From positions 1-41,795 of the forward strand of contig JAJRTR010000201.1 of the NCBI GenBank assembly GCA_024278215.1: a stretch of DNA of 41,795 nucleotides. Direction: 5' to 3'. This DNA is from a bacterium (GTDB taxonomy: Bacteria; UBP15; UBA6099; JAJRTR01). Made by a program: the position numbers and the translations under genes. Below are positions 28,702 through 41,672 of this stretch, in pieces. The notes beneath the pieces are model-generated. The model did not search any database and was not told the DNA's origin. It saw only the letters and a program-made list of their open reading frames with translations. The number at the start of each line of letters is the position of its first letter. The stretch's first letter is position 1.

Positions 28702-30432
28702 TTATTCGTAGAGCGGCAACAGGAAATGTGACGGGTGCTCCGCGTCGACATAGAAAGTTATATTTGCCGGTCGCGTATCGACCGCCAGGTCGGGCTTGCT
28801 CACATAGCGTCCGATATTTTCTTTCACAGCCTTCTCGAGTTCGCCTTCCTGGAGATCGAGGAATTTGCCGTTGTGCAGATTGATGTCGAAGCGTGGGAAG
28901 TTCGAGCCGGCAAGTGACACACGCACGCGGTGCCCTTTGTTGAATATCAGGCTTGTCGCCGTGACATTAACTTCCATTTCATATATTTTACCTTTCTCAA
29001 GCGGCGGCGCGGGACCGTCCATGCCGTTGCGATGGATCGCTCTGACGAGTCCGTCCGCGACCAGCATAGACCTTCCGTCGGGATAGACATCCATCAGCCT
29101 GACGGCTATATCGGTGTCGGGAACATCAGTCGAGAAGTAAACGATCGCCCGGAGGTCGCCTGTAACATCCAGTGGTTTTGTCAGTGCGGGCGTAGTGAAG
29201 ACGAGTACGTCGTCGCGTTTTTCTATCTTGCGCTGGTCGAATGAACCGGCCGGGAGCGAAAGGTTGGCACCTCCTACAGTCGGTACGGGGTTCGCGGGGT
29301 CGGAAACGATTTTCATCACATCGTCGTCGGCAGCCGGTTTTTCGGTGGAGAGTGTGCCGTCGTTATGAAAATAATAGGATGTGGGCATCGAATTTTTCGG
29401 GGGCCATGTATCGGCCGAGCGCCAGGAGTTGCCGGGTGCGTTCTCGTCGTCGACATCGCCCATCACGTAGTATCTGACCGCCGGTCCGCTGAAGTAGCCT
29501 TTATCCTTTCCCTTGAGCGTTTCGTCGAACCAGTTCATCATTTTTTTTATGAGGTTATATTTCGAGTTCACCGGGTAGGTGAGCTGGCCCTGTTTTGTGC
29601 CCGCCATGCCGCACCAGCCGCCGTGTGTCCAGGGGCCGACGACTAGTCGCTGTCTGCCTCGCGCGCCTTCGGCGCCGTTTTCCTGTATATCCTGGAATGC
29701 ACGGATGTTGCCTTCGAGAAATATGTCGTACCAGCCGCCCATGTGCAGTATGGGATAGTGTATATTTTCAAGATGTTCGTGTATGTTGTTTTTCTTCCAC
29801 AGATCAATATAGTGCTGCGTTGAAAGCAAAAGTTTCAGTATTTTGATAGGGAAATCATTGCCGCCTACCCATTTCAGGACAAGCGCTCTGCGGAACCCGC
29901 CGCCTTCGTGGGCCGCGTCGTGGTAGAGGCTGCCGGCGGCCGCCATGACATACTGCGACTTCAGGTAAGGCGACGGGTCCGCCGCCATCGCGTATTGCGT
30001 AATACCCATGGCGGATATGCCTGTTGTTCCCACCTTGCCGTTGCACCACTTCTGTTTTCCTATCCAGTCGATCGTGTCGCGCCCGTCGTCCGTGTCGTCC
30101 ATGAACGACATGGATGTTCCTTCCGAATCGAACCGGCCGCGTGTGTCCTGCACGACCCAGGCATATCTTTTCGAGAGCACCTGCGTGGCGAAAATAGCGC
30201 CCATCTCCCTGCCGTAGGGTGTCCTCATGAGAATAACCGGAAGTTTCTTGTTATTGTTTGACGGAAGGTATATATCGGTTGCCAGTTTTACGCCGTCGCG
30301 CATCGGAACCATGACGAATTCTTTTTCGTATGCCCACGTGCCGGCAGAGAAAAGCATCGTGATCATAAAAGCAGCAAAAACTGTAATGGAAATCTTTTTA
30401 ATGATAAGTGCAGTCGTGAGTTTTTTTGTCAA
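28702..30432 (-). CDS. Secreted CocE/NonD (X-Pro dipeptidyl-peptidase S15 family) hydrolase
   Basis: The family comprises serine hydrolases acting on acyl esters, cephalosporins or X-Pro peptides. The N-terminus RDGVKLATDIYLP, the QDTRGRFDSEG segment, the nucleophile elbow GTTGISAMG (Ser near residue 140), the GGWYDIFLEGN Asp segment and the GPWTHGG His motif make a complete catalytic triad. A C-terminal jelly-roll domain (DVTGDLRAIVYFSTDVPDTD...) matches the X-Pro C-terminal domain. The frame is open from 30540. A TTG at 30432, with GGAG 8 nt upstream, starts a protein whose first 30 residues are a signal peptide (KKISITVFAAFMITMLFSAGTWA), so this start is preferred (576 residues). It is transcribed alone and has its own terminator. 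The substrate is unknown. Confidence 0.88.
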   Translation of the reverse strand: MTKKLTTALIIKKISITVFAAFMITMLFSAGTWAYEKEFVMVPMRDGVKLATDIYLPSNNNKKLPVILMRTPYGREMGAIFATQVLSKRYAWVVQDTRGRFDSEGTSMSFMDDTDDGRDTIDWIGKQKWCNGKVGTTGISAMGITQYAMAADPSPYLKSQYVMAAAGSLYHDAAHEGGGFRRALVLKWVGGNDFPIKILKLLLSTQHYIDLWKKNNIHEHLENIHYPILHMGGWYDIFLEGNIRAFQDIQENGAEGARGRQRLVVGPWTHGGWCGMAGTKQGQLTYPVNSKYNLIKKMMNWFDETLKGKDKGYFSGPAVRYYVMGDVDDENAPGNSWRSADTWPPKNSMPTSYYFHNDGTLSTEKPAADDDVMKIVSDPANPVPTVGGANLSLPAGSFDQRKIEKRDDVLVFTTPALTKPLDVTGDLRAIVYFSTDVPDTDIAVRLMDVYPDGRSMLVADGLVRAIHRNGMDGPAPPLEKGKIYEMEVNVTATSLIFNKGHRVRVSLAGSNFPRFDINLHNGKFLDLQEGELEKAVKENIGRYVSKPDLAVDTRPANITFYVDAEHPSHFLLPLYE

Positions 30433-30610
30433 TGGATGTTCTCCGTTTAAAATTTCCTCTTCAGCGAGGTGACCGGCTATGTTATAGCGGAAACATGCTA
30501 TACCGCGTTTTATGGTTGAGTCTGAATAATAGAAATGCAATCTAAATTGAAACTGGAAAATAATAAGACATTAAGGAACCTGCATAGAATCACAACGAGA
30601 GAACATCGGA

Positions 30611-30988
30611 TTATATGCCTAGAAGTCTTTTGAACACACCAACAGCTTTGTCTTCGTCGAAGGGCTTGGAGATGACGCTCAGCGCTCCCGCTTCGAGAGC
30701 TTCGAGCAGTTTGTCCTGTGCACCGCCGAGGGAACTTACTACGATAATTTTAGCGCCTGGATCGGCGGCAATAATCTGCCTGATCGCTTCCATACCGCCT
30801 ATGCCGGGCATCGACAGGTCCATCGTCACAAGATCAGGCGCGAGTTCCTTATATTTTTCGATAGCCTCTTCACCTGTTACGGCGTTGTCTATGACTTCGC
30901 AGCAGTCGATGGATTCGATGATTTCAGACAGCAGATGCGCTGCGACCCTGCTGTCGTCAGCAATCAGTATTTTTTTTGTGTCGCTCAT
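30611..30988 (-). CDS. CheY-like single-domain response regulator
   Basis: This is a receiver domain without an output domain. It has the acidic pair in IADDS (residues 11-12), the phosphorylated Asp in TMDLSMPG (Asp57), the Ser switch in VVSSLG and Lys108 in SKPF. Length is 125 residues from the ATG at 30988, which has AGGA before it; an upstream in-frame codon at 31003 is less likely. It lies 32 bp after the cheX-like gene on the same strand. The pair would be a phosphorylated regulator and its phosphatase, as in chemotaxis systems, although no kinase or receptor gene is in the window. Confidence 0.92.
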   Translation of the reverse strand: MSDTKKILIADDSRVAAHLLSEIIESIDCCEVIDNAVTGEEAIEKYKELAPDLVTMDLSMPGIGGMEAIRQIIAADPGAKIIVVSSLGGAQDKLLEALEAGALSVISKPFDEDKAVGVFKRLLGI

Positions 30989-31020
30989 AAATAATCCTTT
31001 CAAGCTGATTACTATTCAGA

Positions 31021-31899
31021 TCACACTTTTGTAAGCACTGCAATTTCATAATTACCCATCGTCGTATATCCGGGAATTATCGTACCCTGTTCATTATCGT
31101 TGAATTTCACTATCGGCGCATCCTTATCCGTAAGCCCCACCGGCGGCACTATTTCGATAGTTTTTCCGCCTTCGAGCATCTTTGCCCGGACATTTCCACA
31201 AACAACATTTACAAATTCCTGTGATGTGTCCTTGATAAGTTCTCCATCAAACGGCAGATCGTCTTTTTTGAAAGTTTTCTTTGCTATCTGGTGCGCCACA
31301 TCCCATGAGAGGTTGAGCACATATCTGGCGCTGATGTCGCCTTTGAGGTCCATCATTACTGTGATGCCCATGTTTTTCGACTCCTTCTGTTCGAGCAGGA
31401 GTTGTCCGGACTTCGCCTGCATGTCGCCGATCCGCAACATGAGTTTTTCTGTAAGATCGACAGAGACTTCCACCAGTTTCTTCTCCGGGATATTTTCCTT
31501 GATCATTACCTCAATCGGCGGCACCTGCTGCTGTTCTTCCTTGAACAATGAAAGTTGTTTCGCAAGATTCTCCTTATCCATGTGACCACAGGCGACAATC
31601 GACTCGCCGAGATAAATGTGATTGTATTTCTGAATCGTCAGAATCTCCTTGAGCTGGTCTTCAGTGATAAGCCCCAGCTCGACAGCGAGATCGCCAAACC
31701 GCATATCCGTGCGCTTCTGTTCATTATGGACTTTTGCGACTTCTTTCTCCGTCATCATCTTTTTCCGGATCGCAATTTCGCCCATTTTCAGAATTTTCGA
31801 TTTCTGGTATTTGATCGCTTCTATCAGTTGGTCTTTTCCCAGTATTCCCTTTTCGAGCAGATACTGACCGAAGAATTTTGGTGTGATTCCTGCCGCCAT
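31021..31899 (-). CDS. MshEN-type repeats fused to a CheX-like phosphatase domain
   Basis: Residues 1 to about 120 contain repeated segments of the form LLEKGILGKDQLIEAIKYQK and VELGLITEDQLKEILTIQK, the pattern of the GspE/MshE N-terminal domain, which binds cyclic di-GMP in some proteins. The C-terminal half (from about 130) fits CheX: SWDVAHQIAKKTF, then the active-site helix DTSQEFVNVVCGN with the Glu and Asn used for dephosphorylating CheY-P. The downstream cheY gene is the natural substrate. I infer a module in which an N-terminal sensory or localisation part controls removal of phosphate from CheY. Whether these MshEN repeats bind a nucleotide cannot be told. Start ATG at 31899. Confidence 0.75.
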   Translation of the reverse strand: MAAGITPKFFGQYLLEKGILGKDQLIEAIKYQKSKILKMGEIAIRKKMMTEKEVAKVHNEQKRTDMRFGDLAVELGLITEDQLKEILTIQKYNHIYLGESIVACGHMDKENLAKQLSLFKEEQQQVPPIEVMIKENIPEKKLVEVSVDLTEKLMLRIGDMQAKSGQLLLEQKESKNMGITVMMDLKGDISARYVLNLSWDVAHQIAKKTFKKDDLPFDGELIKDTSQEFVNVVCGNVRAKMLEGGKTIEIVPPVGLTDKDAPIVKFNDNEQGTIIPGYTTMGNYEIAVLTKV

Positions 31900-32301: not shown

Positions 32302-33762
32302 CTATTTCAGGGTAATGCGAGCGCCTTGGAATTCGGTGAGTGAATACCTGAATATCTCATTGGCGGAACTTGTGGAGACATAGGCATAATCGGAAGACAC
32401 GACGATGTCGATGGGGAAATCAGGAACTTCAGGACTGAAGAGAACTTTGCCTGAAGCGATATCTATTACAAGCATCACGCCCTGTCCCTGGCAGAGGACA
32501 AAAGCATAGGTATAAGTCGGGTCGGCGGCCATGCGGGTCGGCTTGTTGCAGGGCTCGGCGCTGTCGAGAGTTGAAACGATCTTCCCGGAGTTGGCGAGTC
32601 CGTCATCGTCCCACATTATCCGTAGCAGTGGGTCGCTTTCGTCTTCTGCGTTCGACGATGTGCATGTAACATAAGCGGTCTGGTCGGGCAGGGGCAGTAT
32701 GTCGCGTGGCTGCTTGCATATACTTAGATATTTGAGGTCTCCGTTGATTTCTTCCGCATCTGTGGTGCTGTACGTGATCGATTTTTCCCTGTCATAGTAG
32801 CCTCTGATTGTTCCCAGGTATATATCGGTTTTCGTGGCGCATACTTTGCTGTCTGTCAGGCAGGTGCCGCCGATGCAGTCGGTGTCGGAAGCGCAGATGC
32901 AGCCGTCGGGATACTTGCTGCTGCTTGCGTTGCAGGAATAAACGCATTGGGGAAGCGCCAGGGATGTATCGCAGTCGCGGCTTGCGCAGTCGCTGTCTGT
33001 GGAACAGGCGCAGGAATTGGGCATATCTGTTCCCAGGCAATACCCGTTTTCCTGCGCATTGTAATAGGGCGAATCGAATTTCAGAGTCAGTGGATCTTCG
33101 ATATCGAGCATCTCGATCCGCGCGTCTTCGTCGTCCACGACATAAAGTCTGTCGTTCGAGCTGTCGTACCGCATCGTTACGGATGAGGCGAGATCGCTTA
33201 GAGTATCCGTGTCGACGAGCGACATGGTGCTGTCGTCGATTACAGCGATGGCCCTGGTCGTCGGGCTGTGGACATATATGGCGTCGTTGTTTTCATCACT
33301 TGCTATCGACCGCGCGCCGGATATGGAAGTAATCGCTATTTCTTTTACGACTTTCCCCTCTGAAATGTCGATCACCGAAACATACGTGCCGTTGAGTTTT
33401 TCATATCCCGTTTGTGGATAGCTGCATGAGACCAGACTGTCATGAGTTACATAGAGTCTTGTGTAGTCTCTGTTGAATGTGATATATCTTGGCCAGCACG
33501 CGACCGGAATAGTTTTAATCGTAGCCATACGGTCGGTTCTGACGACAGATACCGAAAAATTCAGATTATTGACAACATAGAGTTTCGACGCGTCTTTGTT
33601 GAGTGTCAATCCCCATGGAAGACTGTATGCGCCTGTTTCGGTGAGGCCGCTGTTCTGCGGTGCCGCGCTCTGGCCGCATCCGGATACCCAGAAACACACA
33701 CACAGCAGAAATGCTCCGGTCAGCAGCGTGCGGAAAAAACAGGTCGAACGTGGCGGGCGCAT
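32302..33762 (-). CDS. Lipoprotein with beta-propeller repeats and a Cys-rich insert (paralogue 2)
   Basis: A signal peptide ends in the lipobox VSGC, followed by GQSAAP, so the mature protein should be lipid-anchored. YncE/NHL-like propeller repeats follow (LPWGLTLNKDASKLYVVNN, PRYITFNRDYTRLYVTHD). In the middle is a module with CACSTDSDCASRDCD, CVYSC, YPDGCICASDTDC and GGTC, which interrupts the propeller. Further propeller strands continue to the C-terminus. The ATG at 33762 gives a normal signal peptide (486 residues); a longer frame from 33840 starts inside a dispersed repeat. It is a paralogue of the upstream gene (33998-35524), sharing GCGQSAAP and the Cys module. Function is unknown; a role in surface binding together with the porin is likely. 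Confidence 0.7.
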   Translation of the reverse strand: MRPPRSTCFFRTLLTGAFLLCVCFWVSGCGQSAAPQNSGLTETGAYSLPWGLTLNKDASKLYVVNNLNFSVSVVRTDRMATIKTIPVACWPRYITFNRDYTRLYVTHDSLVSCSYPQTGYEKLNGTYVSVIDISEGKVVKEIAITSISGARSIASDENNDAIYVHSPTTRAIAVIDDSTMSLVDTDTLSDLASSVTMRYDSSNDRLYVVDDEDARIEMLDIEDPLTLKFDSPYYNAQENGYCLGTDMPNSCACSTDSDCASRDCDTSLALPQCVYSCNASSSKYPDGCICASDTDCIGGTCLTDSKVCATKTDIYLGTIRGYYDREKSITYSTTDAEEINGDLKYLSICKQPRDILPLPDQTAYVTCTSSNAEDESDPLLRIMWDDDGLANSGKIVSTLDSAEPCNKPTRMAADPTYTYAFVLCQGQGVMLVIDIASGKVLFSPEVPDFPIDIVVSSDYAYVSTSSANEIFRYSLTEFQGARITLK

Positions 33763-33783
33763 CGAATGTTCAGGGTAAACATA

Positions 33784-33836
33784 TAGTCCTTCTCTGCGGC
33801 CTCTATATCTCTGTGCTCTCTGTGTTAAAAGCTTTT
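33784..33836. repeat. CACAGAG-type dispersed repeat at the 5' end of the lipoprotein gene
   Basis: On the minus strand the sequence reads AACACAGAGAGCACAGAGAT followed by ATAGAGGCCGCAGAGAAGG. Imperfect CACAGAG/GCAGAG iterations of this kind are a familiar intergenic repeat in many environmental bacterial genomes. Here it extends the reading frame of the lipoprotein gene upstream and could mislead start-site prediction. Confidence 0.6.
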
Positions 33837-33997
33837 TCATTTCGATAGAATTTCAGCGGCGACTGCGCTCTGCACAAAACGCCGGTCTTATTGTTTCGCA
33901 GTGCCCGGGGACACCCATAATAATTTCTACAGCGTCCCGACCGGACTTAAGTATAATGCTTTTTCTATTAAGGGTAAAATCCGGTGGCGAATACGTT

Positions 33998-35524
33998 TCA
34001 TTGCTTCAGCTTTATCACCTGCGGTCTGTCTGCGTGATCGAGCGGAAGGTCCGCGATTGGGTATCTGTAGATACTGTATTCAGACATACTCGTGACAAAG
34101 AAATAGTCATCGGAAGCGATAATGTCCGCCGGTGTCGATGGGACTTCCACAGATTTAAGGACATCTCCTGTAGACTGGTTTATAGCAAGTACGGCATTGT
34201 TGCCGAAACAGATGACAAAAACATATCTGCCCGACGGGTCGGAAGTTATTTCCGTCGGCCTGTCGCATTGCCTGGCACTGTCGAGCGTGACGACCGCACT
34301 TCCGTTCACCGCAAGACCGTTCGTGTCCCACATCACCCGCAGTAATGGGTCGTAGTCATCGTCGTCGAAATTGCCGTAACAACTGACATAAGCGGTATTA
34401 TCGGAAAGGACTTCGACGTCCCACGGTTCATCGCAGAGGCCCAGGTCCGCCATTTTATTCGGTGATTTGAATTGATCGTCGTTGGCGTCATAACAGTCAT
34501 CGGTATCCCTGTCACAATAGCCTTCAACATTGCTTACAAGAAGCTTGGTATATGACATGCAACTGCCTGAAGAACATAAACCGGACCTGCAATCCGAGTC
34601 GCTGCTGCATGTGCATCCGTCGGGATATCCACCGTTTGATTCACATGATGAGGCGCAGAAGGACAGAGTGGCGGTCGTGTCGCATTTTCTGCTCGCGCAA
34701 TCACTGTCGCTGTCGCAGGCGCAGCCGTTTTTCCGCTCGGCGCCGAAACAATATCCCGTTTCCTGAGCGTTATATGTATTCAGATCAAATGTTTCCGATT
34801 TTGGGGCATCCGGTTCTACAAAATATATGCCGTTATTAGTGGGAGCCATAATGTACATGAGGTTCCTTGTATAGTCCATTATGAGCTTTGAAGGATACAT
34901 GCCGGTAATATCAAAATATCCCGTACTGCTTGTGTAATTTGTAATAATCTCGTCGGTTGTACCGTCGATCATGCTTATGCCGTGGCTCGATCCTGAGCCT
35001 GTGACATAGACGACGTCATTTGTCGAATCATAAACAACATCTCTTGCATTACTGACCTGTGTCAGGGCGATTCCTTTTGTTACTTTCAGTGTCGACATAT
35101 CTACAACGGATAGATAAGAGCCGTCCGACATCGCCCCGTGCGACAACTGTGAATAGTAACATTGATTGGTCCCGCCATTGACGCCTGAGATGTCGTGTGA
35201 TACGAACATCCTGCTGTAGTCTGAATTAAAAGCCATTCTATATGGTTTGCATGTCGTAGTGATGCTTCCCACTTCCACCATCGCTGCAGTATTGTAAATG
35301 GAAATCGAATGCTGGCTGCTGTTGGCAACATAGAGGAGCGAGTAGTCCTTGGAAAAAGCCATGCCCCAGGGCCGCCTTGAAGCGCCAGTGCTCGTTTCAG
35401 TGAAATTCGTGCTGCCCGGCGCTGCCGACTGCCCGCATGATGCGATAAATATTACCATTATCGTTACAACAGCAAGCGCCGCATCTTTTAACGTTCCTGA
35501 TATTTTGCAGTTTTTCTGAAGCAT
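33998..35524 (-). CDS. Lipoprotein with beta-propeller repeats and a Cys-rich insert (paralogue 1)
   Basis: The signal peptide (AALAVVTIMVIFIASC) ends in a lipobox Cys followed by GQSAAP, as in its paralogue. Propeller-type repeats include RRPWGMAFSKDYSLLYVANS and PYRMAFNSDYSRMFVSHD. The central Cys-rich module has CACDSDSDCASRKCD, CASSC, YPDGCTCSSDSDC and GLC, spaced like the module in paralogue 2, and then the propeller resumes (VTLDSARQCDRPTEITSDPSG). GGAG lies 4 nt before the ATG. It starts 20 bp after the stop of the SLH porin gene and so is very likely co-transcribed with it. Both would sit at the outer membrane or cell surface. It has 508 residues; function is unknown. Confidence 0.72.
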   Translation of the reverse strand: MLQKNCKISGTLKDAALAVVTIMVIFIASCGQSAAPGSTNFTETSTGASRRPWGMAFSKDYSLLYVANSSQHSISIYNTAAMVEVGSITTTCKPYRMAFNSDYSRMFVSHDISGVNGGTNQCYYSQLSHGAMSDGSYLSVVDMSTLKVTKGIALTQVSNARDVVYDSTNDVVYVTGSGSSHGISMIDGTTDEIITNYTSSTGYFDITGMYPSKLIMDYTRNLMYIMAPTNNGIYFVEPDAPKSETFDLNTYNAQETGYCFGAERKNGCACDSDSDCASRKCDTTATLSFCASSCESNGGYPDGCTCSSDSDCRSGLCSSGSCMSYTKLLVSNVEGYCDRDTDDCYDANDDQFKSPNKMADLGLCDEPWDVEVLSDNTAYVSCYGNFDDDDYDPLLRVMWDTNGLAVNGSAVVTLDSARQCDRPTEITSDPSGRYVFVICFGNNAVLAINQSTGDVLKSVEVPSTPADIIASDDYFFVTSMSEYSIYRYPIADLPLDHADRPQVIKLKQ

Positions 35525-35544
35525 CTTACTCCTGTTGTTAAACG

Positions 35545-38388
35545 CTAAAATGTCGCCTCTAGCTGGAAAGAAACTTTCTGGCTGTCTATTACAGGGTACT
35601 TCGACGTATCGTCGCTGTCCGGCAACCTGTCATATTCTTTTTCGTAAGATAGCGATATATTGGCCGAATTCGTCAATTTGTATTTGAATGATTGTTTAAG
35701 CAGAAAATTCTTGCCATGCGGCGCGAGGGTGTTTACCGCATCTACGAAAGCGTCAAGATAATAATCGACGGATATACTGATGTTCCTGATACCGAATGTG
35801 GTCTCGGACTCGGTGCGCGAAGAAGTTCGCCAGTTTAATATATAATCCTGTGAATTGAAAAGGACGTCTATTTTTATATCCTTGTCGACACCGTTCGGAT
35901 CACCACAGTCGAGAATTCCGTCACCTTTATACTGATCGATCAGGTTTCCATGATCGTCGGTGACAACCTGCGGCGTACTGAAATCCAGACATGCTTTCGG
36001 CAGATTAAGATTTGCCACGCTATATTTGAAATTAAGATTTATATCGTCGTTTAAGTAATATTTCAGGTCATTATTCCAGTATGTTATTTTCAGTGTTTCC
36101 GTTCTTGTGTTAATAAAATCGATTGTAGGCAGGAAAAGCTGAAGGTATGTTTCTTTTTCAAGGCTGCTGGTTCCATAAGCGACCGCGCCCGGATCGAAAT
36201 ACATTGGCTCGATTTCATTACCCCAGATGTAGTAGGTCGAGTACTTGTAATTATCTTCCTGCTGCTTGTCTATACTGAAGTTGGTAATGAATACCTCAAG
36301 GCTCTGAATGGAAATGGGCAGTATCGACAGACCGCCGCCACCCATCAGATCATTCATATCAAAGCCGGGAAGTCCGAAATATTTCGTCACAAATTCCGGC
36401 CCCAGTCTGGCGTACCCCAACGGGAAAACTTTTATAGGCCCCTTGTTGTAATCTAGCAATATGATAAAGCCGTCGTCCTGATCGCGGCGTTCCTTCGACG
36501 GGAAATATCCCTGAACTGTTGTATCGGCGTACTTCTTGGCCGGATCGTTCGGATCACATTTCACCTGTCCCGTCTTAAGGTCCTCGTCGGCTGTACTTTC
36601 AGGCACACAGTCCCTGTCGAGCATCACCGAATAGCCGGGCTTGTAGTATGTGCTGTGAGCGTATTCTCCAGTGAAATAAATATTCTTCGTCACCGGATAC
36701 CTGATGAAAGCGCTTGTAACGCTATTCTTTTCCGGTGGCAGACAGAAAAAATCTTTGTAGGCTACATCCGAGTCGATCCCCTTCTGTCTCGAAGGGTCGT
36801 CTTCTATATCCATTTTCACCCAGTAACCAGTGTTGCATCCGGGATAATTCGTATATTTGTCGTCATACATCCATATCTTCTGAATATTACCCATGGATTT
36901 AGCTTCACCTAAAACCGACGACTGAAGATTTACCCCATATACATACCTGTCGTATTGAGTGTCATCATTTTCAACATAATAATCCAGAGTTCCGAAAAGA
37001 CGACCATAGTGGTATGCGGTGCGCCCGCCGAAAACATTCAATGTGTAGTTGTTCAGTTTGAGGCTTGCACTTAATCCCTGGACTTTGAAACCGTACATTG
37101 TCAACGGTGAGTATGCGATTGCGATGTTACCTACAGAAATATCTCTTATCTTGAAATTTCTCGGGTTTTTCGGATCGTCCCGCTTGTCCTGAAACTGGAT
37201 GTTGAAACTGCTCAGACTGAAAGCGGTGTTGTCGCCGGAGATATATCCGGGATATCCGGTTTTTCCTCCGATGATCGTATCGACTTTGGTCGTGCCTGAA
37301 ATAGAAAAATCTTCAGCCGGGTCGGGCGTACTGTCGAAAGTGAGCGACAGGCTGTTGTTTATGGAAGTGGTCTCATGCCTGTTCTGATGGTCTCCCGTCA
37401 CCGCGCCGCCCGATTCCAGCGAGAACGTGTCATTCCCGGTGATCCTGAAGCGTTCGTCTTCTTTCTTGAGATTTTCTATCTGGCGCTGGTTCTTCAGCGA
37501 TATGCGCTGGACGTCTTTGATTTCTTTTTTCAGCGCTTTGTTGTATTTCTTAAGTTCTTTTTTGAATGTATTCACAAGTTGCTCGATGGTGTCGAGGTCT
37601 TTTTGCGTGAGGTCGATTTTTTCTTCGACTTTGACGATGCGTTCTTCCCATTCGGGTTCGGGGGGGGTGGGTTCTTCGGCGGCGGGCGTTTCTTCTTCGT
37701 GCTTTTCCGCCTGCTCTTCCTCGTCGTCGGCTACTTTCGGCACATCGGGCAGCACACTGTTGTCCGCCGGTGCGCTCCTGTCTTCGAGCACAGACATGTT
37801 GCCCGTGCGTTGCAGGGTGATGTGTCTGCCGCCCGGCGATGTGACTGTAATGTCCTGCGCCTCGGGAATGAGGTTGGGGCGTTTGGGCGTTATCACCATT
37901 AATTCTTCGGTATTGTCTGTTGTCGCAGGAACTACCTCGCGGACTGGCGCTGAATGTTTCCGGCTGGTTGCGACGACCGGTTCCTTGCGGACTTTGATGG
38001 TCTTGTACCTGACCACTTTGCCGGTGTTGTCCCATTCGAGATACCTTACGAGAATCTTGTTGACCAACTCCGCCATCTCATATCTTGTCATCGGCCTGTC
38101 GCCGTGAAACAAACCGTCGGGGCCACCCTCGATGAGGCCGAGTTCCGCAAGGTGCTTCACCGCTTTGTAGGCCCAGTGACCACGCGGGACATCCGCATAA
38201 GATGATTCCATGGTATTCTGAAAGTAGTCCAGGTCTTCGAACACATCCGCTGTTTCATCTTTATAAAGGTAATCGTCGTCGAGGAAATCGAACTGGTCTG
38301 CCGCACGCGCGGCATACGAACACAAAAACATGAGTATAACAAATAGTAGTAACGCGGTTGATTTTTTTCCCAACAGGGTTTGTTTCAT
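35545..38388 (-). CDS. SLH-domain outer-membrane porin (OmpM-like)
   Basis: A signal peptide (STALLLFVILMFLCSYAARAA) is followed by an acidic stretch and one SLH domain (YADVPRGHWAYKAVKHLAEL...PMTRYEMAELVNKIL, residues about 63-112). Next come a Pro/Glu-rich linker and a coiled coil (EKIDLTQKDLDTIEQLVNTF...), then a long beta-strand-rich barrel with alternating aromatic strands ending in SFQLEATF. The terminal Phe is the outer-membrane sorting signal. This is the layout of OmpM-type proteins that tether the outer membrane to the cell wall in diderm Terrabacteria and related groups. The ATG at 38388 is preferred over an upstream frame start at 38463, since the signal peptide begins there (947 residues). 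It heads a cluster with the two propeller lipoproteins. Confidence 0.82.
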   Translation of the reverse strand: MKQTLLGKKSTALLLFVILMFLCSYAARAADQFDFLDDDYLYKDETADVFEDLDYFQNTMESSYADVPRGHWAYKAVKHLAELGLIEGGPDGLFHGDRPMTRYEMAELVNKILVRYLEWDNTGKVVRYKTIKVRKEPVVATSRKHSAPVREVVPATTDNTEELMVITPKRPNLIPEAQDITVTSPGGRHITLQRTGNMSVLEDRSAPADNSVLPDVPKVADDEEEQAEKHEEETPAAEEPTPPEPEWEERIVKVEEKIDLTQKDLDTIEQLVNTFKKELKKYNKALKKEIKDVQRISLKNQRQIENLKKEDERFRITGNDTFSLESGGAVTGDHQNRHETTSINNSLSLTFDSTPDPAEDFSISGTTKVDTIIGGKTGYPGYISGDNTAFSLSSFNIQFQDKRDDPKNPRNFKIRDISVGNIAIAYSPLTMYGFKVQGLSASLKLNNYTLNVFGGRTAYHYGRLFGTLDYYVENDDTQYDRYVYGVNLQSSVLGEAKSMGNIQKIWMYDDKYTNYPGCNTGYWVKMDIEDDPSRQKGIDSDVAYKDFFCLPPEKNSVTSAFIRYPVTKNIYFTGEYAHSTYYKPGYSVMLDRDCVPESTADEDLKTGQVKCDPNDPAKKYADTTVQGYFPSKERRDQDDGFIILLDYNKGPIKVFPLGYARLGPEFVTKYFGLPGFDMNDLMGGGGLSILPISIQSLEVFITNFSIDKQQEDNYKYSTYYIWGNEIEPMYFDPGAVAYGTSSLEKETYLQLFLPTIDFINTRTETLKITYWNNDLKYYLNDDINLNFKYSVANLNLPKACLDFSTPQVVTDDHGNLIDQYKGDGILDCGDPNGVDKDIKIDVLFNSQDYILNWRTSSRTESETTFGIRNISISVDYYLDAFVDAVNTLAPHGKNFLLKQSFKYKLTNSANISLSYEKEYDRLPDSDDTSKYPVIDSQKVSFQLEATF

Positions 38389-38428: not shown

Positions 38429-38592
38429 ACTGAATTGCCTCCGAGAGACTTTTCACACCGCAACTTACCGGTGCTGTACCATACGGCTACACTATCTTAA
38501 CTCATTATCATTCTAAAGAGCAATGCAATTTTATATAAAACGTACATATATTTCAATAATTTTTTTCTAAAACACTTTTCTTTCAGGTGATA

Positions 38593-39645: not shown

Positions 39646-40692
39646 TCAGGCGGCCTTTCCGTAGAGTTTTTCGTGCTGATGTCGGATATGAAACTGCATG
39701 AAGCCGTCCCAATCGAAGTTTTGTTTTATGGCGCGAAGATCGAGGATTGCCTGTGCGCCTTTTTTCGTCCATCTTTTTCCTGAGCCGTCCATTCTCTCTT
39801 TCACCAGTGAGCCACATGCGCCTTCTATGAGTCCTGTGCCGATGGGGAATCCGGCGGCAAGATATTTGTCGTATTGCATCATGTGACGGTGGTTGTCGAA
39901 GTATATTATGACCTTGTTGAGGCTTCTCTTCTGTGATGCTTTCAGCCTGTATCCTGTCTTGGTTAAGATCTGGCGAAGTCCTCCGGTGATGCGCCCGGCA
40001 CCTCCTTCGAGCAAGGCGAGTGTTTGTTTGTAAACCCAGCGTTCGCGCCCGGCGTTTTTTTCTCCATGCAGCGCGGTCGCGGCCTCCCAGAGATATTCCA
40101 TGACGTGAAATATGTCAAGGCAGATTCCGGCTATTCTGTTCTTCCAGCCTCGTTTCTTGAATTCTGCCATGAGTCTGCGTTCGGGGGCTTGCTCGCCGTC
40201 GACGATGATATAGATGTTTTTTGGTTCTTGCGGGTTGCGTTGTTTTATGCGTTCAGCGAGGCCGGCGAATGCTGTTTCTTTTCCGTACATTGTCGCTGAA
40301 TACTGCTTGTTCAGGGGCGCTCTGGGGGGAGGCAGTCCGTGTTTTTTTCTTCTTTCTTTCTCTTCCTTTTCTTTTTGTCTGTTTTCCAGCATTTGTTTTC
40401 TCATCAGTATGTTTGCCATGTCAGGTGCTGTTCGCGCCTCGGGGTTGAATGTATAATCGCAGGTGACGACGGCGTCTTTTCACAGGCCTGTTTTCATTCC
40501 ATTGCCCAAACGGGCCGCAGGTTTGTCCGGGCTCTTTTTCGCTTTTTCCGGCTTCTGCGACGCCACCATCCTCACACCCTTGCAGTCTGCTGTGGCGCAT
40601 ATCACTTCTCCTTCGGCTTCTCTCGCCGGCGCAGACGCAAACGAACCAAAGAACACAAACGCAAGCCTCGCGAGTAACGTACATGCGCACAT
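39646..40692 (-). pseudogene. ISKra4-type transposase, truncated and carrying an in-frame TGA
   Basis: The 3' part encodes DPEA-less but typical ISKra4 blocks: YIIVDGEQAPERRL, ICLDIFHVMEYLWEAA, the segment YLAAGFPIGTGLIEGACGSL and RMDGSGKRW, ending with FHIRHQHEKLYGKAA. Upstream in the same frame is EGEVICATADCKGV, the block that normally reads EGEVLVxxxDGKGV, with the first catalytic Asp. Between them a TGA at 40480-40482 interrupts the frame (MKTGL, stop, KDAVVTCDYTFNPEAR). The N-terminal third of the protein is missing: upstream of 40692 the sequence loses similarity and soon turns into other repeats. The longest intact stretch starts at an ATG at 40419. The gene cannot make a full transposase. 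Confidence 0.75.
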
Positions 40693-40937: not shown

Positions 40938-41672
40938 CTACCATTCATCATCTTTTTCATAACCGTTTCTAATCAGCCAATCTTTAATTAAAGGCTTTAT
41001 GATTTTTTTGTCTTCTTCGCTCAACTCTGTTTTCCATTTGTTCACTGTGCTTTTAACGGTCAGTGAAGTTCCATGACTTTTGAATACATTCTTCCCCTGT
41101 TTTTGCAAATAGTCCAGTGCGTTGTCAACTTCTCCGTTTTCAGTTGATAATCCGGACATCCCGTATAAATTTGTGATAGCTTTCCGGGGTGAGGAAACGA
41201 ATTCTTCATACCTGAAGATATTATCTGTAGTTGTTTTTAAGAATTCATCATGCACGACTTCAGGAAAACTTACCACTGGATCAACGCCTGCCAAATTCAA
41301 GACACCGTCCTTTTTATTGAGTCGGAACTTATTATGTCTGGATATCATGGCATCGCGGGGGTCTCTTATTGTTCGTATGAAGACCGCATTGGGAAATAAA
41401 GCATGGACATCGTCATAATGTTGCCAGCCTATCTTTTCGCAAATTCTCAGTGGTTCTGAATCGGTTTTATTTTCCAGGAAGATATTTACCAGTCGAAGTT
41501 TGAATTTATCCTTGATCGCAGCGGCATAGTACCTGAAAAACATATTTTGTGTTTCAGCAAGAATAGTCTCCGACAAGAGCATAGAATAGCGTGGATGTCC
41601 TATATACGTTAAGCTATCTTCTTTTGCATCATTTGAATATTTTCTCGGATTCTTATAACTGGACAGTACCAA
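40938..41672 (-). pseudogene. Sulfotransferase-family gene, 5' truncated
   Basis: The segment CEKIGWQHYDDVHALFPNAV followed by FIRTIRDPRDAMISRHNKF is the 3'-phosphate-binding motif of PAPS-dependent sulfotransferases. The later FRYEEFV matches the YEDLV strand of the family, and the C-terminal WKTELSEEDKKIIKPLI also fits. The N-terminal GxxRSGTTLL P-loop that binds PAPS is missing. The frame is closed by a TAA at 41688-41690, and the first candidate start is a TTG at 41672 without a ribosome binding site. The gene therefore looks decapitated, with sequence of a transposon-associated gene at the break. It is more AT-rich than its neighbours, suggesting acquisition. Sulfated surface glycans would be the family role. 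Confidence 0.65.

Follow-up and report, generated by a model that had tools for sequence, protein, structure and literature searches.

Side-by-side genes for a wall-tethered porin and cysteine-rich propeller lipoproteins in a candidate bacterial phylum suggest a dedicated complex of the cell envelope

Tether-porins of the OmpM kind may be an ancestral means of fastening the outer membrane to the cell wall (PMC10628300), and little is known about the partners of such porins. One example comes from Deinococcus radiodurans, in which DR_0644, a predicted lipoprotein, docks on the coiled coil of the tether-porin SlpA (PMC9388160). A review section on diderm Terrabacteria, a group to which the bacteria described here may not belong, states that these organisms have neither outer-membrane lipoproteins nor a Lol pathway (PMC11784454). 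We describe herein a clear genetic case of such a partnership in an unstudied phylum, where a porin of this type is encoded next to two lipoproteins. It raises the question of whether lipoproteins reach the outer membrane in diderms that have no LolA and, if so, how.

The window, i.e., the whole stretch of 41,795 nucleotides analysed, comes from contig JAJRTR010000201.1. All three genes of the cluster lie on its minus strand, in the order porin, lp1 and lp2, and the coordinates agree with a sequence-only reading of this DNA that had placed three genes here with the first two 20 bp apart. The features are as follows.

38528..38556, minus strand: promoter candidate 5' of the porin gene, sigma-70-like (TTGAAA-17-TAAAAT), a consensus match only
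35545..38388, minus strand: porin (por1), SLH-domain outer-membrane porin of 947 aa; ATG at 38388, stop at 35545; first gene of the cluster
38071..38199, minus strand: single SLH motif of the porin, its cell-wall-binding end (profile match)
37450..37605, minus strand: long helix of the porin (aa 262-313), perhaps a coiled-coil stalk from SLH to barrel; low-confidence model, pLDDT about 60-71 in this part
36742..36837, minus strand: span of the por1-specific Cys pair C518/C549
35529..35533, minus strand: AGGAG, likely ribosome-binding site of lp1, within the 20-bp gap (from the sequence)
33998..35524, minus strand: lp1, propeller lipoprotein 1, 508 aa, lipobox Cys30, YVTN/YncE-like propeller (profile and fold of the model)
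34526..34774, minus strand: 12-Cys insert of lp1, in blade 4 between strands C and D (blade count read from the strand list of the model)
32302..33840, minus strand: lp2, propeller lipoprotein 2, up to 512 aa; start maybe at ATG 33762 (from the sequence)
32806..33063, minus strand: 12-Cys insert of lp2 (from the sequence)

Sigma-70-like consensus sites such as that upstream of the porin number 16 in the region, against a mean of 10.1 in shuffled sequences. Between lp1 and lp2 lie 157 bp. Initiation of lp2 at the internal ATG 33762, which may be the real start, would shorten its signal peptide and widen this gap to 235 bp. By eye, the first 26 codons of lp2 (33763-33840, minus strand; LTQRAQRYRGRRE...) resemble an in-frame low-complexity repeat. 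No clear ribosome-binding site was seen upstream of either start. Because lp2 lies 157-235 bp from lp1 and a weak promoter-like site stands between the two, lp2 may be a separate transcript in the source genome.

Divergent from the porin and just upstream of it are genes that by eye resemble those for ribosomal proteins L21 and L27 (38681-39308, plus strand). Farther out on this side lie a 257-aa open reading frame (39646-40419, minus strand), which had no Pfam match at E 0.001 and by eye resembles the remnant of a transposase, and a gene for a sulfotransferase-family protein (40938-41672, minus strand). Downstream of the cluster, on the same strand, are genes for a CheX-domain protein and a response regulator (30611-31899, minus strand), which were found in none of the relatives' cluster stretches, and for an X-Pro dipeptidyl-peptidase (S15) family protein (28702-30540, minus strand).

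The porin carries one SLH motif (PF00395; E 2.8e-9, 37.2 bits against a cut-off of 20.8). The best structure-profile match of this region is 8BZ2 (E 6.4e-12), the stalk of VpOmpM1 (PMC10628300), and it also matches SlpA (7ZGX, E 3.1e-7) as well as 8BYM and 8BYS, which, judging from their shared molecule name, appear to be OmpM. Given these matches to OmpM and SlpA structures, a wall-tethered porin with lipid-anchored partners, as initially proposed, is a fair description. Weaker matches of the same region include the S-layer protein Sap (6bt4, 3pyw), and therefore the SLH motif alone does not define the tether-porin family. Beyond the SLH part, barrel region included, the profile search gave no match to solved porins. 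The structural model, of a single chain, with a mean pLDDT of 39.6 and too poor for a structure search, has a helix at residues 262-313 followed by many long predicted strands and a C-terminal Phe.

The phylum set (UBP15/UBA6099-like) consists of seven genomes, our own (G000) included, and SLH proteins occur in all seven. Their SLH porins fall into two clades, por1 and por2, with split support of 100/100 in a midpoint-rooted tree that drew a long-branch warning from the program. A pair of cysteines, C518/C549, is present in all six por1 proteins with data and in none of the five por2 proteins with data, and a second pair, C800/C828, is common to both clades.

The two lipoproteins are paralogues with 39% identity across 479 aligned columns; each carries a lipobox Cys, and no other full-length member of the family was found in their genome. 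The lipoboxes, read by eye, are IASC-G in lp1 and VSGC-G in lp2. The Cys-Gly is invariant in all nine aligned proteins, and the lp1 proteins of family f2 have a less standard lipobox, CSSC. The sequence GQSAAP after the Cys, which had been pointed out as shared by the pair, is indeed shared, but it is no family feature, as the seven other aligned proteins carry GTGKG or GRGSAPG.

An AlphaFold model of lp1 built on 10 sequences (mean pLDDT 61.2, pTM 0.65) is a propeller, and its strand list can be read as seven blades. Confidence is about 60-90 in the blade stretches and below 50 in the insert (242-324). Foldseek ranks 1l0q, hydrazine synthase beta and the YncE of E. coli highest; re-alignment gave 5c2v_B (hydrazine synthase beta; Z 29.9, rmsd 2.7, 294 aligned), 3vgz_A (E. 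coli YncE; Z 29.3, rmsd 2.5, 283 aligned) and 5i5i_A (the NosZ propeller; Z 27.9, rmsd 2.9, 298 aligned). With 5c2v_B and 3vgz_A tied and unrelated propellers close behind, the match indicates a fold class only. At the profile level, lp1 scores above the cut-off of TIGR02276 (29.7 bits; cut-off, 27.85) and lp2 below it (13.1), and both stay far under the 400 bits of the YncE equivalog NF052280 (28.4 and 25.5). Profile and modelled fold (that of lp1) thus both bear out the proposal of a YncE/YVTN-like propeller.

A search of genome contigs for the lipoprotein family returned five loci, all on contigs of the cluster's own group, the relatives being ADurb.Bin236, UBP15_UBA6099 and two further metagenome-assembled genomes. 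Among 386 genomes, with up to the best four candidates per genome scored, the family had weak partial matches in four of the 379 genomes outside the phylum (E 1e-8), and a plasmid search with lp1 at E 1e-5 gave no match. Six of the seven phylum genomes (G000:C194, G001:C36, G002:C320, G003:C48, G004:C30, G006:C587) contain open frames of about 2,000 aa whose propeller repeats distantly resemble lp1 and lp2.

The gene for por1 and that for a propeller lipoprotein are adjacent in six of the seven phylum genomes (G000, G001, G002, G003, G004, G006), and in the seventh, G005, the contig breaks off within por1. The two are separated by 20 bp in our genome and by 22 bp in G001, G003, G004 and G006, and overlap by 1 bp in G002. 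Conservation of the neighbourhood, which the sequence-only reading had named as its own test, is therefore borne out for the pair. The full three-gene order, on the other hand, holds in part: two whole lipoprotein genes are found in four of the seven (G000, G001, G003, G004), G002 has one, and the contig of G006 ends inside the second, which probably continues at contig C77. Relatives of the L21/L27 genes stand upstream of por1 in all six genomes of families f1 and f2 (our own and five of five others), so part of the adjacency in these families may be plain synteny. The sole other setting is G002 (family f3), where L21/L27 were not found in the cluster stretch and both flanks differ, and where the pair of porin and lipoprotein is kept.

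The linkage is limited to por1. No propeller lipoprotein lies downstream of por2 in the five genomes with downstream sequence (G000, G001, G003, G004, G006); por2 of G005 is cut by a contig end, and none was present in the 1.2 kb downstream of a por2-like piece of G002, which was not part of the tree. Outside the phylum, no match to the lipoprotein profile (E 1e-3) was found in 35 loci around SLH porins. These loci represent 37 of the 38 match places (G327:C165 was left out) in 24 non-phylum genomes at a porin-profile threshold of E 1e-10, with up to the best two candidates per genome, some of them on short contigs, and the survey is one that a very diverged propeller could escape. The porin itself was recovered in 32 of the loci; in the other three (L114, L117, L134) the overlap filter for open reading frames lost the porin and might have lost a neighbour. 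Within the scope of this survey, a general pairing of SLH porins with these propellers was rejected.

In a lipoprotein tree built without the distant G002 protein, the two copies of our own genome join with support of 100/99, and AU tests reject a one-to-one pairing of these copies with those of f2 (p 0.0019 and 0.0036). One-to-one orthology of lp1 and lp2 across families was rejected on these grounds, with long branches in play. With the G002 protein included, one of seven inner branches was starred, and that tree leaves the pairing unsettled. Because our own copies pair in the tree and the AU tests agree, separate tandem duplications of the lipoprotein gene in two families are the probable history; the same tree could also arise from long branches or gene conversion.

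A distinctive feature of the lipoproteins is the Cys-rich insert in the propeller, for which the pattern CxCxSDxDC... had been noted. Its 12 cysteines are invariant in nine of nine proteins aligned from five genomes, and chance is therefore not an adequate explanation. The acidic part of the pattern fares differently: Asp and Glu number 10 and 11 in the modules of our own genome and 2, 2, 4, 2, 3 and 4 in six standard-length f2 modules (the G006 lp2 fragment was left out of this count). An SDxD metal site was thus rejected as a conserved feature. In lp2 of G001 (L021:6419-8158, minus strand), the module extends to 179 aa, with 24 Cys and 18 Asp plus Glu, compared with a usual length of about 84. 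Outside the module, six propeller cysteines occur at lp1 positions 92, 122, 364, 382, 420 and 439; two more, 337 and 344, are absent from lp2. Besides the lipid-bearing Cys, lp1 thus has 20 cysteines and lp2 has 18. The G002 lipoprotein has no insert and seven cysteines, namely that of the lipobox, five in the columns of lp1 92, 122, 382, 420 and 439, and a sixth aligned at lp1 344, the surroundings of which look more like 364.

A VKOR oxidase is encoded in seven of the seven phylum genomes. Since the 12 cysteines are kept, the acidic residues are not, and VKOR is present throughout, the evidence favors disulfides over a metal site, and the capture of metal by the module, as suggested earlier, is not borne out. 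The 76-aa lp1 module matched no Pfam family up to E 1, and whole lp2 matched Metallothio_6 below its cut-off (E 0.92; 10.5 bits of the 23 needed). Searching PDB sequences with the lp1 module yielded two weak matches to small peptides (E 0.072 and 0.13). When up to the best 14 candidates per genome were scored, a module profile found six of 386 genomes at E 0.001, i.e., five of the phylum and G097. The open reading frame in G097 (L138:6055-7473, minus strand), which lies outside the phylum, encodes 472 aa with a lipobox-like start and similar Cys spacing (C-x5-C-x-SG-x-C type). Unlike lp1 and lp2, it has 48 Cys in tandem repeats; the profile matched its Cys part, no propeller match was seen, and Pfam gave none at E 0.001.

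A SepCysS operon and a noncanonical SepRS homologue have been reported from the ADurb.Bin236 genome (PMC5424206). Cysteine in this phylum may therefore be made by the RNA-dependent route, which is striking beside its Cys-rich lipoproteins.

As to the envelope, LolA was found in none of the seven phylum genomes, of which three have a completeness of 90% or more. The control search gave matches in six of 14 named genomes, including E. coli, two archaea and Deinobacterium, and the profile is therefore not a clean marker. OmpA-domain matches occur in three of the seven genomes (G000, G001, G002), each beside a MotA-like gene; a second match in G001 sits in another MotA/MotB-like pair (all these Mot genes named by eye), and the match in G002 is itself absent from the filtered list of open reading frames. 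With such neighbours, these matches were rejected as Pal, and no Pal was seen. The polysaccharide pyruvyl transferase family PF04230, of interest as a possible source of a pyruvylated wall-polymer ligand for a tether-porin, exceeds its cut-off in five of the seven genomes and in eight of the 14 control genomes, E. coli included. OmpM diderms are likewise described as being without LolA and Pal (PMC10628300), and the setting is like the picture drawn for them in the portions of the literature cited here (PMC10628300, PMC9388160, PMC11784454). Because LolA is found in none of the seven and the review on diderm Terrabacteria points the same way (PMC11784454), the lipoproteins may be anchored in the inner membrane; their placement in the outer membrane or on the surface was a suggestion of the sequence-only reading.

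Taken together, the adjacency of por1 and the propeller gene points to a possible envelope complex of a pore with its dedicated partner, and it may also reflect nothing beyond co-regulation. By analogy with SlpA, we tentatively favor, with a confidence slightly short of even, a tether-porin of the OmpM/SlpA type on which dedicated propeller lipoproteins dock as accessory subunits. The SLH end of the porin would bind the cell wall, its putative helical stalk would cross the periplasm, and its predicted C-terminal barrel would sit in the outer membrane and pass solutes. The N-terminal lipid would hold the propellers, in whichever leaflet, while they dock on the porin, for which its periplasmic neck is the likeliest site, after the example of DR_0644 on SlpA. 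Such a collar could stabilise the assembly, or screen or hand over solutes. The conserved cysteines would staple the propeller through disulfides, and in f1 and f2 the 12-Cys, probably disulfide-rich, insert of blade 4 would add a rigid contact arm. The observed basis of this model is the gene order and its conservation, the SLH motif, the propeller fold of the lp1 model and the Cys conservation; that the lipoproteins are specific for por1 is supported by a gene linkage limited to por1 and by the Cys pair found only there.

The location of the propellers bears on the readings that compete most closely with docked accessory subunits. BamB of E. coli is a propeller lipoprotein. As one of the BamBCDE lipoproteins it aids barrel assembly (PMC11784454), and lp1 and lp2 could in the same way be inner-membrane-anchored, periplasm-facing factors for the assembly or quality control of the porin that never join the finished product. 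This chief rival, which we consider doubtful and yet worth serious attention, would suit the lack of LolA matches in all seven genomes and the account of diderm Terrabacteria without outer-membrane lipoproteins or Lol (PMC11784454). It has to accommodate por2, a porin of the same kind without such a partner beside it, so that an assembly factor must serve por1 or act at a distance. It is also at odds with the residue at position +2, which is Gly and not the retention signal of E. coli. That signal, which keeps lipoproteins in the inner membrane, is Asp at +2, and the rule may not hold in this phylum. The idea first put forward, of surface-exposed proteins that bind ligands or cells and feed the porin or mediate contact, appears unlikely: a search confined to LolA revealed no path for export to the surface, and the SDxD acids, the proposed ligand or metal site, are not conserved. 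An exposed module would nonetheless suit the variable length of the insert (179 aa in G001 lp2 against about 84), the lipoprotein-like frame with similar Cys repeats in G097, and the YVTN propellers of the archaeal surface-layer protein 1l0q. Bolder, and in our view still harder to credit, is that the propellers are obligate outer-membrane subunits of the tether-porin that arrive by a Lol-independent route, e.g., carried with the porin; if true, it would run counter to the notion that outer-membrane lipoproteins are lacking in such diderms.

Two further readings carry the lowest confidence. That porin and lipoproteins are neighbours merely by inherited gene order or shared expression, with no physical complex, could draw on the fact that the support for pairing is gene order, on L21/L27 standing upstream as well in f1 and f2, and on the promoter-like site upstream of lp2 in the source genome. 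We consider it very unlikely, as the pair is kept in G002 amid other flanks and in-place duplication of the lipoprotein gene probably happened twice, once in each of two families. Least probable of all is that the propellers are redox or metal enzymes, like nitrous-oxide reductase or hydrazine synthase, that receive substrate through the porin. The nearest solved folds do include 5c2v_B and NosZ, but E. coli YncE fits as well, so the match speaks for a propeller only; a CxxCH haem motif is found in none of 15 proteins checked (10 lipoproteins and five porins), and the NCBIfam scores of lp2 for such enzymes (39.6 of 560 and 19.7 of 700 bits) are far below the cut-offs. A redox propeller was therefore set aside as unlikely.

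How, then, does the cluster compare with known systems? Like OmpM of Veillonella parvula and SlpA of Deinococcus radiodurans, the porin has a single N-terminal SLH, then a linker in which a helix is predicted and many long predicted strands. It differs from them in having no profile match to solved porins past the SLH, and co-encoded propeller lipoproteins do not figure in the cited parts of their descriptions (PMC10628300, PMC9388160). The likeness to DR_0644 is that of a lipoprotein partner of an SLH tether-porin; DR_0644, however, is a trimeric beta-sandwich (PMC9388160) and not a propeller. With the YncE/YVTN propellers, such as E. coli YncE, the archaeal surface-layer protein 1l0q and leptospiral Lp49, lp1 and lp2 share the fold, as modelled for lp1, whereas the lipobox, the conserved framework cysteines, the 12-Cys insert and the linkage to a porin gene set them apart. 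In the open-licence literature, a set of tether-porin and Cys-rich propeller lipoproteins was not found described; YVTN, porin and lipoprotein co-occur only in gene tables in the available part of PMC3495685, the candidate phylum UBP15 was not found, the titles listed under the bare name UBP15 seeming to concern eukaryotic proteins, and UBA6099 appeared in a strain table only. The earlier statement that no system with this set had been described is thus nearly right, with D. radiodurans SlpA and DR_0644 as a close parallel (PMC9388160). Each part of the cluster is of a known kind, and what appears to be new is a putatively disulfide-rich propeller lipoprotein, probably duplicated twice, beside a tether-porin.
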